NCBI GenBank assembly: GCA_963281255.1
Contig: OY725490.1
Location: 6,820,001 to 6,884,000, forward strand
From: Aphrocallistes beatrix
Lineage: Eukaryota > Porifera > Hexactinellida > Sceptrulophora > Aphrocallistidae
Length of the DNA stretch: 64,000 nucleotides
Reading direction: 5' to 3'
Shown: positions 9,284-19,673 of the stretch, one piece after another
Position numbering within the stretch: the first letter of the stretch is position 1
Layout of the letters: each line of letters starts with the position of its first letter
The notes under the pieces: model-generated
The model's database searches: none
Told to the model about the DNA's origin: nothing
What the model saw: the letters and a program-made list of their open reading frames with translations, nothing else
Program-made: the position numbers and the translations under genes

Positions 9284-10711
9284 ATGGATGACACTCAGCC
9301 TCTATTCCCAATTGACATGCAATGCATGAGAATAACGGATTGGTTGATACAAAGGAACCACGTGCAAACAGATTGGATACATTTAGTTAAGAAAATCCAG
9401 GAAAAAAGCGTCAAGCCTCTGCTGCCTTCCCTTACTCAGGATATAGTGTGGGAGATAGCTAACTTGAGTGAGCACATTGGGAACAGTGCGAAATGTGACA
9501 TTCCATATTACATGTGTAAACGAATCTTCGAGTATTTCCTGTCAAAAGAAGGAGGAGACACAGATCTATTCGGGAGCTATTCATCTCGGAATGTTAAGTC
9601 CTGGTCTACTGTTTTGAAACAGTATAGGAAGGATGCATTGCACTTGGGCGAGACGGGTTATTTGATTACAAATAATCTGAAATATGAGTTGCCTTACTGG
9701 CATAAACAGAAAGAACGCACTAAACAGCAAATCCAGGTTGCCAACCAAAAGATTAACACCTTGATCCGATCGAAGGATGGTCTAAATGAGAAGTATCTAA
9801 GAACGTGTCGGGGCCTGGGACTGAGTGTTGAGAGTGATTTTAGCAAAGAAGAAGTGTGGGATTTCGCAATTGGCTGTATTGTGGACGATGGAAAGGCTAA
9901 GTTGATGGAGCTGTTTCGCTCTGATATCTTCAGTAGGCTAAGATCAGTGATCGAGTTTTACACTAACTTCATACGGGCCTGGCAAACCGAGGACTCAGAG
10001 CTACTTAACATTGATGAGCTCCTACCTATATTAAGAAGTTTGTTTAGTTTCCTGGACTCTCTCACTCCGCGAACTGTCGAACAAGAGCAGATTCTGTCCC
10101 CAACTGAACACAATGAGTTTGGTATTGAACTTGTTGAAGAGAATGGTGGTGCATGTAAACCCAGTTCCTCTCCAACTAGTGACAGCAATACATTCTTACC
10201 TATAAACAAACACTCGTTTCGCCATGATTTATTGAACGAATTGCAAGAGATTGAGTTTTTCTTGAATCAAAGAAAAAATGAAATGTCTGATTCGGGATTA
10301 GATTCATTTTCCATAACACAGTTAATCGAGACCACTCCCCTTAGACAAGATCTGGAATCAGTCAGTGAGGTGCAAGTTTGTGAGATGTCAACTTTGGTAA
10401 AACAGATCAAATCCGAGCTCAACCTCCCACAGATACAGCAGACTTACAAGCTTTTGCGCTCTAAGCCTTACAGATTTCGGCTTCAAGATGAAATCCTAAG
10501 ACTGAAAGCGCAGGAAAAGAAGACCATTAAGAAAATTGAACTGGAGGAACAAACTAAAGACAAATTGATTCGAAATCTCCAAGAAATAGCGAATAGAATT
10601 GATAAAATAATCTCGAATTGCAGATACCTCAAACAGCTATTCGAAACTGAGGCTTCTCCTTTGTTCAATGATAGGAAAGTGAATCTAGTCGGAGAGATCA
10701 ACCGTTTGTAA
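9284..10711 (+). CDS. CDK5RAP3: CDK5 regulatory subunit-associated protein 3 (UFMylation adaptor)
   Basis: Substrate adaptor of the UFL1-UFBP1 UFM1 ligase at the ER, acting in ribosome UFMylation and ER-phagy. It is a single exon of 475 residues; human is 506. The N-terminus (PIDMQCMRITDWLIQRNHV) matches the family's PIDIQ...DWL start, FGSYSSRNVKSW matches the conserved FGRYSS motif, and the C-terminus VNLVGEINRL matches the family's VNLMG end. Long helices dominate residues 140-190 and 400-460. In the central loop, where vertebrate proteins carry repeated IDWG-type UFM1/ATG8-binding motifs, I see only EFGIELVEE near residue 285. The ATG follows a possible acceptor (CGTAACAG). The next gene starts 227 bp downstream. 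Confidence 0.92.
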   Translation: MDDTQPLFPIDMQCMRITDWLIQRNHVQTDWIHLVKKIQEKSVKPLLPSLTQDIVWEIANLSEHIGNSAKCDIPYYMCKRIFEYFLSKEGGDTDLFGSYSSRNVKSWSTVLKQYRKDALHLGETGYLITNNLKYELPYWHKQKERTKQQIQVANQKINTLIRSKDGLNEKYLRTCRGLGLSVESDFSKEEVWDFAIGCIVDDGKAKLMELFRSDIFSRLRSVIEFYTNFIRAWQTEDSELLNIDELLPILRSLFSFLDSLTPRTVEQEQILSPTEHNEFGIELVEENGGACKPSSSPTSDSNTFLPINKHSFRHDLLNELQEIEFFLNQRKNEMSDSGLDSFSITQLIETTPLRQDLESVSEVQVCEMSTLVKQIKSELNLPQIQQTYKLLRSKPYRFRLQDEILRLKAQEKKTIKKIELEEQTKDKLIRNLQEIANRIDKIISNCRYLKQLFETEASPLFNDRKVNLVGEINRL

Positions 10712-10938
10712 ACTGATCGCGACCTGAGAATTGAATGCTATGTCTTCCTATTTTCTGCATCTTTTGTTAAACTGAAAACTGATATTATTTTGTCAATAAA
10801 ATTTATTGCGGTTAGGAATATAATATTTCTTAATTAAGTACGTATATATATAGAGTTCAGTTACAACTACACTACATTCTCCCCACAAGATATTTATTTT
10901 GTATTTATTCCTTTAAACCTATCAAGTTTAGAGGTTAA

Positions 10939-13714
10939 ATGAAATCGTTATGCCGTGCTAACTTCAAAAGAACTGTGCATTTCGGCAGGTCCATTCGCTA
11001 TTATTTTGCTATAAACAATTCAAAGAAATTTCTTTACACTCCATCAATAAACCCTCGAGTTCTGGACAAAAGATGGTTAGTACCCTGTCCCTACTACACC
11101 CTAAGAAAGCTGTTCAATATAGTGTTTGTTTGTAGGAGCAAAAGTATAGGCTATTTTCGATCGGTAAGCGAAGACATTACTTTGAATAAGAAATATAAAA
11201 TTTCGGATGAAGAAGATTCACGGAATTTCGATGAGCTTATATTCCATATGTACGCGGACGGCCAGCGAGTGAGCGTACTGAAATTCTCAGAGGTATAATT
11301 ACGATAATTTATAACATAATTTTTTATACAATCTGTTTTATTATAACAAATATTTTCAGGAACTAAAGGCGCATGGGATTGTGATCTCCAAGGATCCAAG
11401 ATTCGCAAGTGTAGAAGCTGAGCTCAATAATATAATCAGAGATCATGATGGACAATGCGATTTCGAAACGTTTAGAGAGTTAGTATTTATCCACGAAACG
11501 AAACGAAACAAGTTTTGCTTCCTCATTTCATGCAAAATTTTCATATAGCCTTATCCGGCCTGTGATCAGTATAATCCACAACACATTCCAAGGACATAAT
11601 GTGATAACTGACTTTTGTGAGTTCACTAACGGCCTTAAAGAGCTCGTGAATAGTGTCAAGGATATACAGGAAGGACAGAATGCAACACATATACCACAGC
11701 TGGCCAGAGCAGATCCGAACAAGTTCGGACTATCGATTTGTTCAGTCGATGGCCAGAGATTTTCTGCAGGGGACTATGACGATCAGGTTCCCATACAGCA
11801 GGTGGTGAAGCCCCTGATGTATGGCCTGGCACTCACAGACCTAGGGGAAGACTTGGTTCACAAGTACATCGGCCACGAACCGAGTGGGTTTGGATATGCT
11901 AAGCTGATGCTGAACAACAAAGGTACAGCGGAACGAAAGATACATACGAATTGATAATTCAGTTACGAAAATCGTTCTCTAGGGAAACCTCATAACCCGA
12001 TGATAAATGCCGGTGCATTAGTTTTATCTTCACTAATTTGTGTAAGCAAAATAACTAAATTTCTGAACTCAAGATTTCGAGAATAAATGTTATTGATTGG
12101 AAATAATAATTTATAGCCGGACAAGCCTTCACCCGAGAGAATCGGATATGTGAGTCATTTATAAATGCGAATTTATGCGAAATGTTTAGAGTTACATGTA
12201 CTCGTATGTGAATGTCTAGATGTTAGAGAAGATAAACAGACTGTGTGGAGGTGGGAACATCCTCATTGATCTCCCATCGTAAGTGCTAGCACCTTGTCAT
12301 CAAGGTACAGGGATTGTGTTCATATAACGTTTTACTAGGTTCATATCTGAGAGAGAGAATGCTGATCGTAATTACGCTCTAGCTTATTATTTACGAGAAA
12401 ACAAGGTTAGAGGATAATAATATTACGAAAGAGGAAATGAATAAATTTTATTTATTTCTATAGTGTTTCGCGAATAATGTCAAACTTCGAGATATTTGTG
12501 ATCTCTATTTCCAGGTAGATGATTTGTATACTCTATATCATACGTATATAGTATATAATCTCCGATTTATGTTGAAACAACTCGTATCTTAGCTCTGTTC
12601 TTCACTTGTTGACTGTGAGAAACTGTCGGTAATCGCAGCTTCCCTTGCTAACGACGGAGTTTGCCCTGTTACAGGAGAAAGGGTAAGGCTACGAAACACG
12701 GAAATAGATCGTCTGCTTATTATAGCTAAAATGGCCTAATTCTTAGATTCTCAAGTCCATCGCAGTAAGAGATACTCTCAGCATGATGAACTCATGCGGA
12801 CTATACAAGTACTCAGGACAGTTCGCTTTCAAGGTTAACACCGTTGTGACATTGTGCTATACGATTCTACTACGTTCTTATTCTGACATGTGTATGTAGG
12901 TTGGGTTCCCTGCTAAGTCTAGCGTGTCTGGTTTCGTAATGGCAGTGGTGCCAAACATGATGGGGATCTGTACCTGGTCTCCTCCCCTTGACACCAGGAG
13001 CAACAGTGTGCGAGGAGTCAGGTTCATGGAGGTTAGTAGGGTGATAGGGAATAGTCAAGAACTTAGGTTTAGTCGTTTATTTACTTAGAAACTAGTGGAG
13101 AGATTCAACTTCCACAACTACGATTTTTCACCAGATAAATACCATATGAATCCACGGATTAGAAGGAATTCCATTGAGGTTAGCCTTACTCGTATCTACC
13201 GCCTATGTCACTCTATCAGTGTGTTATTATAATCATATTTAGGAGCATAGAATAGCCTCGATGCTTTTCGCTGTTCAGCACGGATCTCTCGGATCAATGC
13301 ATCGGTATTTGTGGTAACTTTAACTGAATTTAAGCATAAAATAAACTAACATCTTTTCGTGTAGATATCTCTCTGCTGGATATGATTTCAACGCATCTGA
13401 CTACGATGGCCGTACTTCCCTCCACATCGCTGCTGCTGAAGGTTAACATTGTACACTCAAAACTGTTTGTCAGATTATTCAGTGTTGAGTCTGAGATATG
13501 CTATTAGGAGCGCTGAGTATCGTGAAGTTTCTAATTGAGAAATGCCAGGTGAACCCCAACCCAGTGGACAGGTTTGTAGTGGTTGTCATTGTTGGTATTG
13601 TGGTTGTCTATTTATTTTATGTTATTTAGATGGGGAAGGACACCTTTAAAAGATGCGATCGTTTTCCATCATGAAGAAGTCAGGAAATATTTGGAAATTA
13701 AATCAATGAAATAA
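10939..13714 (+). CDS. Glutaminase-family protein with altered active site
   Basis: Sixteen exons close in frame to 600 residues: 10939-11292, 11360-11478, 11549-11922, 11983-12041, 12117-12149, 12220-12278, 12339-12405, 12464-12514, 12593-12682, 12747-12833, 12900-13031, 13089-13178, 13243-13304, 13365-13441, 13508-13571, 13630-13714. Order: mitochondrial-type basic N-terminus, EF-hand-like region, glutaminase domain ([44 protein letters not shown]), then two ankyrin repeats ([18 protein letters not shown]) as in GLS/GLS2. Members convert glutamine to glutamate in mitochondria. Here the catalytic Ser (human GLS Ser286, SCVK) is Gln242 (QVVK), and the substrate Tyr249 is His205 (THIPQLA). Lys245 and the Asn, Glu and later Tyr residues remain. 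Activity is therefore doubtful. The fold and orthology to GLS are not. Confidence 0.9.
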
Positions 13715-13931
13715 TATTTTATACTGGTTACTCGTTATCATCTATTAACATCATATCATTGCACTATTATTATAACTGAACATGTTCTCAAATATTTAAA
13801 TTTTCAGTACTGTTTTGGTGTTTGTATCATTTGAGTTATACCCTCCCATTTTAACGGTCGACTCTTTACATATGTACGTAAATATTTTAATATTAAAAGT
13901 ATAATCATGAGTTTTGATAATTGGCTGAAGG

Positions 13932-14899
13932 ATGCTTAGACAAACAAATTCGATTGAGAGAACGAAGAGTTCTTGGACTCCTATTAACGATCGAGTAGCT
14001 AACAGACAGGTAGGCAGGGATATTTCAAGGTGTTACTATTCGCAGATTCCCACTTTGTATGATATTTATCATCTGTTCTAGCTCTTCAACGAGAGAATGA
14101 AACTGATATCTCATTGGGTAAGGTAGGACAGAGCGAGCTTATAAGACACTGGTACACCTATGCTTATTCCATAACTTATAATCGGTTTTGCAGCATAAAG
14201 CTTGGTTTGACTCACAGAGACGGGACTTCATAACATTCTGTCTGGGTCTGTGTAACGAAGAAGAACTCTATTTCACTGAGCTACTCGTGCAGAGTGTTGT
14301 GCCGAGCGAGAATGTTGATTTCACTCGAGTAATGTTGAGATCGCTTTCTCTAAGGATTTTCTCATACCTTGATCCCAAGTCTCTATGCAGAGCTGCTCAG
14401 GTATCCCATTTCTCCTCTTTTTTATACTTTTCATGTTATGACATATAAGATTAATTTAATACAGACTTGTTGGTACTGGAACTATCTCGCCTCCGACAAT
14501 ACAGTTTGGGAGATGAAATGCAAGTCTGTTGGTTGGCACGCAGACATCACTCTTCCCATGAATGTACTCGGATTTTGGAAACACTTTTACGCACAGAAAA
14601 TACACGAGTTAAGGATTTTACCAGAATTGGTACGGTAAATGTAGGTTACATTAATGATAAGATTCACTACTTTGAACGACTCAATACAGGCTAAAAATAC
14701 ACCTCAAGATGCCAATACAGATGGAGAAGAAGACTTTATACATGAAACTGAAACAAGGGATACACCCCCGACAGAGAAGAAGAGAACTGTTACCTTTATT
14801 AAGCACCACACGCCGAATAAAGTAAACGTTTGGAAATCGAACGACTTGAAAGCTAGAGATATCGAGAAAAAGTCTTCTCCTGAAAAGCTTACAAGGTAA
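13932..14899 (+). CDS. FBXO16: F-box only protein 16-like
   Basis: Likely substrate receptor of an SCF ubiquitin ligase. Exons 13932-14009, 14082-14117, 14194-14400, 14465-14629 and 14690-14899 give 231 residues; human FBXO16 is 292. The N-terminus has SWTPINDRVAN, matching the family's WTPLN start, and DSQRRDFI. The F-box follows (LSLRIFSYLDPKSLCRAAQ) with WYWNYLASDNTVWEMKC after it. The C-terminal motif VNVWKSNDLKARDIEK resembles the PPWRSSDKHPTDI block of vertebrate FBXO16. All exons are phase 0. It sits 217 bp after the glutaminase-like gene and 295 bp before CaMKII, same direction. FBXO16 is commonly expressed with cilium and testis genes, and TEX9 and CAPSL lie nearby. Confidence 0.85.
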
Positions 14900-15194
14900 C
14901 TTGACTCATTTGTCTGGATCTCTTCAGAATTTTATATGCAGTATCCCCTTCTAGGACGAAGTATCACTCAACTAGTATTTTATACCATTAGACACAAGAC
15001 AATATTTTAAGTATTTTAAAATATTAATATTCGTCACATATGCAAACCGATCACTTATTTAGGAAAATCCAATTAATATCCTTACACTTTTACTCTCGAT
15101 TGTTATATAGATATAAACTCAACTACACTTATACTTATAAAAATATGAATTTTCAAGTAATTTGAAAGATGTTTCCCGTCTAAAGTTTCTAGAT

Positions 15195-16631
15195 ATGCAG
15201 CCTCTTATTGAAGGTGACGCTTCTGATTTTTTCGTCAATTACGAAGTGAATGAAGAACTAGGAAAGGGGAAATTCAGTGTTGTGAATAGATGCACTCTCA
15301 GAAGAAGCAAGCTTTCGTATGCTGTTAAAATGGTCAAGACGACACAACTCAATAACAAAGATAACAAGTTCGTCAAACAAGAAATAGACATCCTACGGCA
15401 ACTCAATCACAAGAATATTGTCCGTCTACACGAGGTTTACTTAGACTTGAGTCAGACATTCTTAGTTTTAGACTTCCTCTCAGGTGGAGAGCTCTTTGAT
15501 GATATCATCGATCGCTCCCATTACACAGAGACCGACGCTAGCATCTGCATCCAGCAGGTTCTAGAAGCTGTGAGCCACTGCCATGACTCAGGGATCGTGC
15601 ACAGGGACTTGAAGCCTGAGAACTTACTGCTAGCGTCTAAGAGTAAAAATGCTTTGATAAAACTCGCTGATTTCGGTATCGCTGTACAACTGAAGGGAGC
15701 CAATAAAGCATGGTTTGGATTTGCAGGCACTCCGGGGTATCTCTCCCCTGAAGTCATCCAAAGAGAGGACTATGGGCGAGGAATTGATATCTGGGCGTGC
15801 GGCGTGATTCTGTACATTCTTCTTTGTGGCTATCCTCCCTTCTCAAATGAGGATCAGAGGGATCTATTCCGCTCCATCACAGAATGTAGATACGAGTTCC
15901 ATCCTCAAGAATGGGACACTGTAACTCCAAAGGCTAAAGAGCTCATCGAGAACATGCTACATATCAATCAAAACAAACGACCTTCTGCTGAGAAATTGCT
16001 GACGCACCCATGGATACGGGAGAGAAGCGAAACTGCGAGCAATCACAACCGACAGAAAACGATTGGAGCTCTGAGAAGATTCAATGCAAAGCGTAAACTC
16101 AAAGGTGCAGTGCATAGTATCATGGCGATTAACCGGTTAGGCTTTGATACCAACGAAGTTAAGAAAGAAGAGAGCTCATCATTAATCAGTAATCCACCAA
16201 TTTCCATCAAAAATGCACATCTGTGTTCTACGAATGCCAATGACGATATAGCCTTTCCGCCTGATAGGAGGAAAGAGAAATTAAATAATGAAATCGAGAA
16301 AGAAATATTGAATTTGACACAAAGACTAGTGAATACCGACGCTCTCTCTACTTCAGACATGATATGCGATAAATCAACCATATTTCAGTCCGGAGTTCCT
16401 TGCCTCATGCTTCATGGGGACAAATACTACTCCGCTCAAAATCTCAAGTATTCCATCCTTCAGCCTACTTTCCATATCATCAGCCAAGATGCAGTTTGCA
16501 TCGCTTATATACTTGTGTGTAGTGTACAGAACGACATACTCGTCAATTTAAAGAGCTACAAGGAGACTAGGGTGTGGCAGAAGACAGGAGATGGTTGGAT
16601 TTGTATCCATTGCCATTCTTCTGATACTTGA
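15195..16631 (+). CDS. CAMK2: Calcium/calmodulin-dependent protein kinase II, intronless
   Basis: Single-exon Ser/Thr kinase of 478 residues from the ATG at 15195, the first in-frame ATG before the kinase domain. Kinase features: GKGKFSVV glycine loop, YAVKMV lysine, HRDLKPENLL, DFGIAV, GTPGYLSPEV. The regulatory segment RQKTIGALRRFNAKRKLKGA keeps the Thr286-equivalent autophosphorylation site and the calmodulin-binding basic helix. The C-terminus (NEIEKEILNLTQRL ... ACIAYILVCS ... ETRVWQKTGDGW) is a diverged association (hub) domain that would build the multimer. The linker is short, with few alternative-splice features. Absence of introns is unlike its neighbours FBXO16 and the glutaminase-like gene and could reflect retroposition or intron loss. 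An upstream 5' exon cannot be excluded. Confidence 0.93.
   Translation: MQPLIEGDASDFFVNYEVNEELGKGKFSVVNRCTLRRSKLSYAVKMVKTTQLNNKDNKFVKQEIDILRQLNHKNIVRLHEVYLDLSQTFLVLDFLSGGELFDDIIDRSHYTETDASICIQQVLEAVSHCHDSGIVHRDLKPENLLLASKSKNALIKLADFGIAVQLKGANKAWFGFAGTPGYLSPEVIQREDYGRGIDIWACGVILYILLCGYPPFSNEDQRDLFRSITECRYEFHPQEWDTVTPKAKELIENMLHINQNKRPSAEKLLTHPWIRERSETASNHNRQKTIGALRRFNAKRKLKGAVHSIMAINRLGFDTNEVKKEESSSLISNPPISIKNAHLCSTNANDDIAFPPDRRKEKLNNEIEKEILNLTQRLVNTDALSTSDMICDKSTIFQSGVPCLMLHGDKYYSAQNLKYSILQPTFHIISQDAVCIAYILVCSVQNDILVNLKSYKETRVWQKTGDGWICIHCHSSDT

Positions 16632-19043: not shown

Positions 19044-19673
<630 letters not shown>

Follow-up and report, generated by a model that had tools for sequence, protein, structure and literature searches.

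The gene at positions 10939–13714 on the forward strand of the window, by which we mean the whole stretch of 64,000 bases that was analysed (contig C3, bases 6820001–6884000; the genome is small, with 28 contigs that total 100.5 million bases), is intact, and the glutaminase-like protein that it encodes has lost the catalytic Ser286 and the lid-loop Tyr249; the other pocket residues are kept, and a complete paralogue lies elsewhere in the genome. Active-site residues are numbered here as in human GLS. We tentatively read the product of this gene as a maintained, probably mitochondrial pseudo-glutaminase, and the role that we favour for it, with reservation, is that of a partner protein, sensing glutamine or phosphate, for the active enzyme.

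We assembled the gene model manually, guided by splice signals and homology. It predicts 16 exons separated by 15 introns of 57–78 bp, every one of which is bounded by GT and AG, and the coding sequence of 1803 nt specifies 600 amino acids and a stop codon with no internal stop; an in-frame stop stands directly 5′ of the ATG. Exon 1 (10939–11292) encodes a basic N-terminus and the beginning of the EF-hand-like domain, exon 2 (11360–11478) lies in the EF-hand_14 domain, and exon 3 (11549–11922) holds the end of that domain and the start of the glutaminase domain. The two lost residues both map to exon 3, where, by arithmetic from the exon table, the CAT codon of His205 occupies 11688–11690, at the site of Tyr249, and the CAG codon of Gln242 occupies 11799–11801, at the site of Ser286; the AAG codon at 11808–11810, placed in the same way, encodes Lys245, the counterpart of the catalytic Lys289. 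Exon 4 (11983–12041), which encodes a 19-residue stretch with Asn291 (Asn335 in GLS), is followed by exons 5 (12117–12149) and 6 (12220–12278), and exon 7 (12339–12405) carries the motif SERENADRN with Glu337 (Glu381) and Asn344 (Asn388). Tyr370 (Tyr414) lies in the DLYFQ motif of exon 8 (12464–12514), and after exon 9 (12593–12682) come exon 10 (12747–12833), with Tyr422 (Tyr466) in GLYKYSG, and exon 11 (12900–13031), with Val440 (Val484) and the segment AKSSVSGF. The end of exon 12 (13089–13178) corresponds to the point at which human KGA and GAC part (GLS Arg550). The ankyrin region begins in exon 13 (13243–13304), its repeats continue in exons 14 (13365–13441) and 15 (13508–13571), and exon 16 (13630–13714) contains its end and the stop codon. 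The sixteen well-formed exons, the ankyrin repeats and the clear reading frame across exon 3 described in the first-pass annotation are thus all borne out by the gene model and by Pfam.

In the Pfam search, EF-hand_14 (PF17959) was found above its cut-off at residues 98–177, and the Glutaminase family (PF04960) matched residues 200–486 over its full profile (positions 1–286 of 286) with 335.9 bits (cut-off: 27 bits). Five Ank families exceeded their cut-offs in the C-terminal part, so that the protein has the order of EF-hand-like domain, glutaminase domain and ankyrin repeats that is typical of animal GLS and GLS2. Its N-terminus carries nine Lys or Arg residues ahead of the first acidic residue, Asp43, and the protein is probably located in mitochondria. 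Three neighbours of this 16-exon gene, at window positions 9284–10711, 15162–16631 and 19044–19670, have their Pfam matches in one open frame each (CDK5RAP3; a protein kinase with a CaMKII association domain; EF-hands). Such single-frame neighbours may be a sign that genes of this genome have been retro-copied or have lost introns, although further exons may lie outside the frames.

To examine the active site, we aligned GLS, GLS2 and the three paralogues from this genome by MAFFT with 66 bacterial relatives, for which every one of the 66 loci collected was used. At position 286, Gln is present in the window protein only, and Ser is present in 66/66 bacterial proteins, in GLS and GLS2 and in the two paralogues, which we call C8 and C15 after their contigs; this position lies outside both patterns used to collect the bacterial relatives. 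Likewise, only the window protein has His at position 249, where GLS, GLS2, C8, C15 and 66/66 bacterial proteins have Tyr, a bacterial count that is partly built in, as the YIPQLAK stretch was one of the two search patterns. Lys289 and Asn335 are each found in all 66 bacterial relatives, and the window protein retains both of them together with Glu381, Asn388, Tyr414, Tyr466 and Val484. Of the Ser-Lys-Tyr triad it therefore has Lys and Tyr (Lys245 and Tyr422) and lacks Ser. The first-pass annotation had proposed exactly these two replacements, with retention of the Lys, the Asn of NAGA, the Glu of SERE, the Asn of DRN and the later Tyr residues, and the alignment agrees with it at each position. 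TCG, at two changes, is the Ser codon nearest to CAG, and all the others are three changes away; since at least two changes separate CAG from any Ser codon, a single base error is ruled out.

According to an excerpt of PMC10912226, Lys289 deprotonates Ser286 for its attack on glutamine, and the site is closed by Tyr249, a residue of the lid loop; the S286A variant of human GLS1 is reported to be without activity in an excerpt of PMC7078194. Because of these roles and of the inactive variant, it is very likely that the window protein does not hydrolyse glutamine. The loss of the lid Tyr249 may also weaken the trapping of glutamine. A third change, from AKSGVAGG to AKSSVSGF, had been listed as a lesion of the lid region. 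The change itself is real, but it is not diagnostic, and we do not accept AKSSVSGF as evidence that function has been lost: the same segment reads AKSAVSGA in GLS2, SKSGVSGI in C8 and AKSSVSGV in a bacterial relative (L028). Moreover, the lid loop sits elsewhere, being the stretch at Tyr249, which in GLS2 is Tyr182–Lys188 and not the AKS segment (PMC10912226, excerpt).

The solved structures closest to the window protein were those of human GLS2 and GLS, whose four best chains had E values between 9.9e-146 and 5e-140; the GLS2 chain 8szl_A matched residues 96–595 (E 9.9e-146), and the KGA chains 5uqe_A and 8gwr_B matched with E values of 3.4e-140 and 5e-140. The window protein resembles animal GLS (KGA) and GLS2 in domain order and shares 52–53% identity with them in the catalytic domain, but, unlike them, it has Gln for Ser286 and His for Tyr249 and has lost Arg317, Glu325 and Lys398, which belong to the activation and phosphate region. 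With the bacterial glutaminases it has the catalytic domain in common, although Ser286, like Lys289 and Asn335, is found in 66/66 of these.

The genome was searched with the Pfam model (7/7 candidates scored) and with the window protein (73/87 candidates scored, 26 matches), and both searches found glutaminase-domain matches at three loci only, i.e. the window locus, C8 and C15. Six other weak matches of the window protein covered only residues 487–596, its ankyrin part. A second, intact paralogue, whose existence had been raised at the outset, is indeed present: the C8 gene (L009 2426–5887; hand-built model with 7 exons and 565 residues) keeps 10/10 of the active-site residues checked and is the only such glutaminase found in the genome. 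Its glutaminase match in Pfam is nearly as strong as that of the window protein (335.3 versus 335.9 bits), and the two belong to the same clade and have the same domains, although the EF-hand_14 match of C8 is below the Pfam cut-off. C8 differs from the window gene in keeping all ten checked residues, in having its six introns elsewhere, and in carrying Glu in place of Lys320 and Asp in place of Arg317. The C15 gene (L008 3002–4621) is intronless, with a single open frame of 539 residues. Like the window protein, C15 lacks catalytic residues and has Asn at positions 325 and 461; the residues lost are different, however, as C15 has kept Ser286 and Tyr249 and carries Lys289Asn, Asn335Ser and Asn388Cys, as well as His for Phe318. 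Judged by these residues, C15 is a second, differently broken glutaminase copy, and the genome looks to contain one active-looking glutaminase and two that appear dead for different reasons. Beside the C15 gene, at L008 1395–2282, lies an open frame that matched glycosyl hydrolase family 7 with 100.2 bits (Pfam). This family is cellulase-type and unusual in animal genomes.

In phylogenetic trees calculated with 36/66 and 17/66 of the bacterial rows, the three paralogues formed one clade beside GLS and GLS2 (support 100/98). Placing C8 or the window protein with GLS/GLS2 was rejected (p-AU 0.014 and 0.004, respectively). Within the clade, the window protein grouped with C15 with support of 91/50 (36 bacterial rows) and 89/72 (17 bacterial rows); pairing the window protein with C8 instead was not rejected (p-AU 0.308), and for C8 with C15 the p-AU was 0.0899. 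We regard the sister relationship of the window protein and C15 as unproved. The branch of C15 was longer than that of the window protein (1.49 versus 0.76).

In the explanation that we prefer, the gene is a duplicate of the glutaminase of animal mitochondria, and its product would fold and be imported like the enzyme. Hydrolysis very probably cannot start in it, with Gln in place of the Ser nucleophile and His in place of the lid Tyr, and the likeliest role would be that of a regulatory partner of C8, the one intact enzyme: the protein would join C8 tetramers or filaments and set their activity by glutamine and phosphate, the sites for both of which it appears mostly to keep. This partner role is our inference. 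Regarding phosphate, the residues of the site are K320, R387, Y394 and K398 (PMC13218152, excerpt). Three of the four are kept in the window protein, in which K398 is replaced by Asn, three of four in C15, and two of four in C8, which has Glu in place of the phosphate-sensing Lys320, a residue present in 9/66 bacterial relatives. As GAC K320A and GLS2 K253A are described as constitutively active in an excerpt of PMC10912226, C8 may work without phosphate, and the dead copies may still sense it. Regarding glutamine, the hydrolysis-dead GAC variant Y466W binds it and forms filaments that persist (PMC10912226, excerpt). This variant is a close analogue of the window protein, in that both have a glutaminase fold without hydrolysis (predicted for the window protein), but it is man-made, is changed at a different residue, and has been seen to bind glutamine and to form stable filaments. 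It is because the phosphate-site residues are mostly kept and because Y466W behaves in this way that we propose a protein which is gated by glutamine or phosphate and serves as partner or scaffold.

The subunit contacts bear on whether that role would be exercised together with C8. Residues of the GLS filament contacts are kept in 3/5 cases in the window protein, in 3/5 in C8 and in 1/5 in C15, and the inter-subunit bridge R317–E325 is lost in all three proteins (Gly/Asn in the window protein, Tyr/Asn in C15 and Asp at 317 in C8). It is doubtful that the window protein co-assembles with C8: the filament contacts are partial, the bridge is lost and the two catalytic domains are 53% identical (154/290). 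The window protein could instead act on its own, either by assembling with itself into mitochondrial tetramers or filaments or by binding partners through its ankyrin and EF-hand-like parts, and leave the active enzyme untouched. This possibility, which we rate as somewhat unlikely but the most serious of the alternatives, agrees with the retention of all domains, with the differences between the window protein and C8 at the inter-subunit contacts 317, 325 and 461, with the lasting filaments documented for the hydrolysis-dead variant (PMC10912226, excerpt), and with the effect of GAC filaments on mitochondria, which, according to section 4 of PMC13142944, may be uncoupled from the metabolism of glutamine; it is at odds with the filament-contact Phe residues 355 and 373 of the mammalian enzymes, both of which are Ile in the window protein.

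Where the window gene and C8 encode the same residue, 57 of 84 four-fold sites differ between them, against 58.3 expected for random third bases; silent sites between the two genes are thus saturated. In neutral simulations of the C8 frame with point changes only (2000 runs per level), 11/2000 frames were still free of stops at 0.1 changes per site, and 0/2000 were at each of 0.25, 0.5 and 1.0 changes per site. Counted over the 290 positions of GLS 244–533, the catalytic domain of the window protein is identical to GLS2 at 154 positions (C8: 152; C15: 129) and to GLS at 151 positions (C8: 155; C15: 129). A decayed pseudogene was rejected, as all 16 exons are free of premature stops and frameshifts and have sound splice sites, and the simulated neutral genes lose their frame. 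Thus, the earlier view that the domain is not decaying at random is upheld by the intact frame, the saturated silent sites and an identity to GLS2 no lower than that of C8. We consider purifying selection on the window gene for a non-catalytic role probable. An essential catalytic residue is lost and the gene is intact, as in a pseudoenzyme, and the first-pass description of a conserved pseudo-glutaminase gains support from the intact gene, the lost Ser286, the intact paralogue and the literature on S286A.

The gene could also be a recent relic, i.e. an allele or gene freshly without function in which decay is beginning. The near-invariant alignment columns lend this some weight, since 45/52 are kept in the window protein, compared with 50/52 in C8 and 40/52 in C15, and the genome may tolerate spare copies, as C15 also lacks catalytic residues and has the longer branch. 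The seven near-invariant changes of the window protein are at positions 249, 282, 286, 318, 319, 483 and 509; they were not significantly concentrated on the eleven known active-site columns (3/11 versus 4/41, Fisher p 0.15), and one of those three, the Tyr at 318, is also the residue of the active GLS2. These two points, and the higher count of kept columns in C8, speak against our preferred explanation, whereas the 45/52 columns that are kept speak for it. A recent relic is nevertheless improbable in view of the at least two changes needed to turn a Ser codon into CAG, the 16 undamaged exons and a catalytic domain that is as near to GLS2 as that of the intact copy.

A changed chemistry, the alternative named in the first-pass annotation, in which the pocket with Lys245, Asn291, Glu337, Asn344 and Tyr422 would convert a different substrate or use a different nucleophile, fits with the retention of the rest of the checked pocket set, which distinguishes the window protein from C15. 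We judge it quite improbable: there is no Ser, Cys or Thr at the site (a ten-residue stretch), and Gln is not a nucleophile. In addition, human GLS1 with S286A is inactive according to the report mentioned above (PMC7078194, excerpt). Finally, the gene was read from a single assembly, but an assembly or sequencing artefact at codon 242, or a missed splice form restoring the SxxK motif, is very improbable, as the codon would have to be wrong at two or three bases, exon 3 runs continuously across codon 242 with the surrounding frame intact, and none of the five matches to ..SxxK[PVI] in the three forward frames of 10701–13932 could, in our reading, replace the exon 3 motif.

The exon-intron structure bears on the origin of the putative pseudo-glutaminase. 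None of the six intron positions of C8 coincides with any of the 15 of the window gene within six alignment columns. In the alignment, GLS Arg550/Val551 falls at the phase 0 intron that follows residue 505 of the window protein. Arg550 is also where the match between KGA and the human GAC chains of the PDB ends, the local alignments stopping at query residue 60 (61 in the chain set 3ss3). Exons 1–14 are common to GAC and KGA, and KGA continues with exons 16–19 (PMC5399437 and PMC11224379, excerpts); four exons follow the parting point both in KGA and in the window gene. Human GLS2 and KGA have 18 exons (PMC3367983, excerpt). Judging by the matching intron at the KGA/GAC point and by the number of exons, the ancestral structure may survive in the window gene; C8 and C15 would then have been rebuilt or retro-copied. 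A gain of the C8 introns by an introner-type mechanism was rejected; the two of six introns tested matched only themselves, although such a lack of matches is no proof of rarity. A more far-reaching scenario, which we consider unlikely but worth stating, is that the intron-bearing original locus became a non-catalytic subunit that senses glutamine and phosphate, that hydrolysis moved to the relocated C8, which lost the old introns and the phosphate-site Lys, and that C15 was added as a second dead copy. If this ancestral-locus reading were true, glutaminase in this animal would comprise one catalytic protein and two without catalysis.

Searches of open-licence papers, a scope outside which most subscription papers lie, found no pseudo-glutaminase of this family, and the hits apparently dealt with other subjects (PLP synthase, vitamin B6, CPS1, glucocorticoids); pseudoenzymes are already known as a kind, and one appears to be new among serine-dependent glutaminases. 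Glutaminase is a target for drugs, and functions beyond catalysis have been proposed for its filaments (PMC13142944, section 4). A natural glutaminase with the fold, the domains and several regulatory residues but no nucleophile would separate those functions, and with such a protein a non-catalytic role of glutaminase assemblies could be tested without engineered mutants. The loss of different catalytic residues in two paralogues of one genome suggests that the non-catalytic use is not a single accident.

By its gene content the genome belongs to an animal. A search for Chitin_bind_4 had no hit in it, which says little because the 14 control genomes had none either. A further observation concerns contig C28 (17,996 bases) of the same assembly, with frames at L011 3092–4672 and 1795–2385. 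It carries COX1, which reads well with the invertebrate mitochondrial code (table 5); the frame at 1795–2385 has 197 codons, and the recognised long genes of this contig, judged by eye, lie on one strand.
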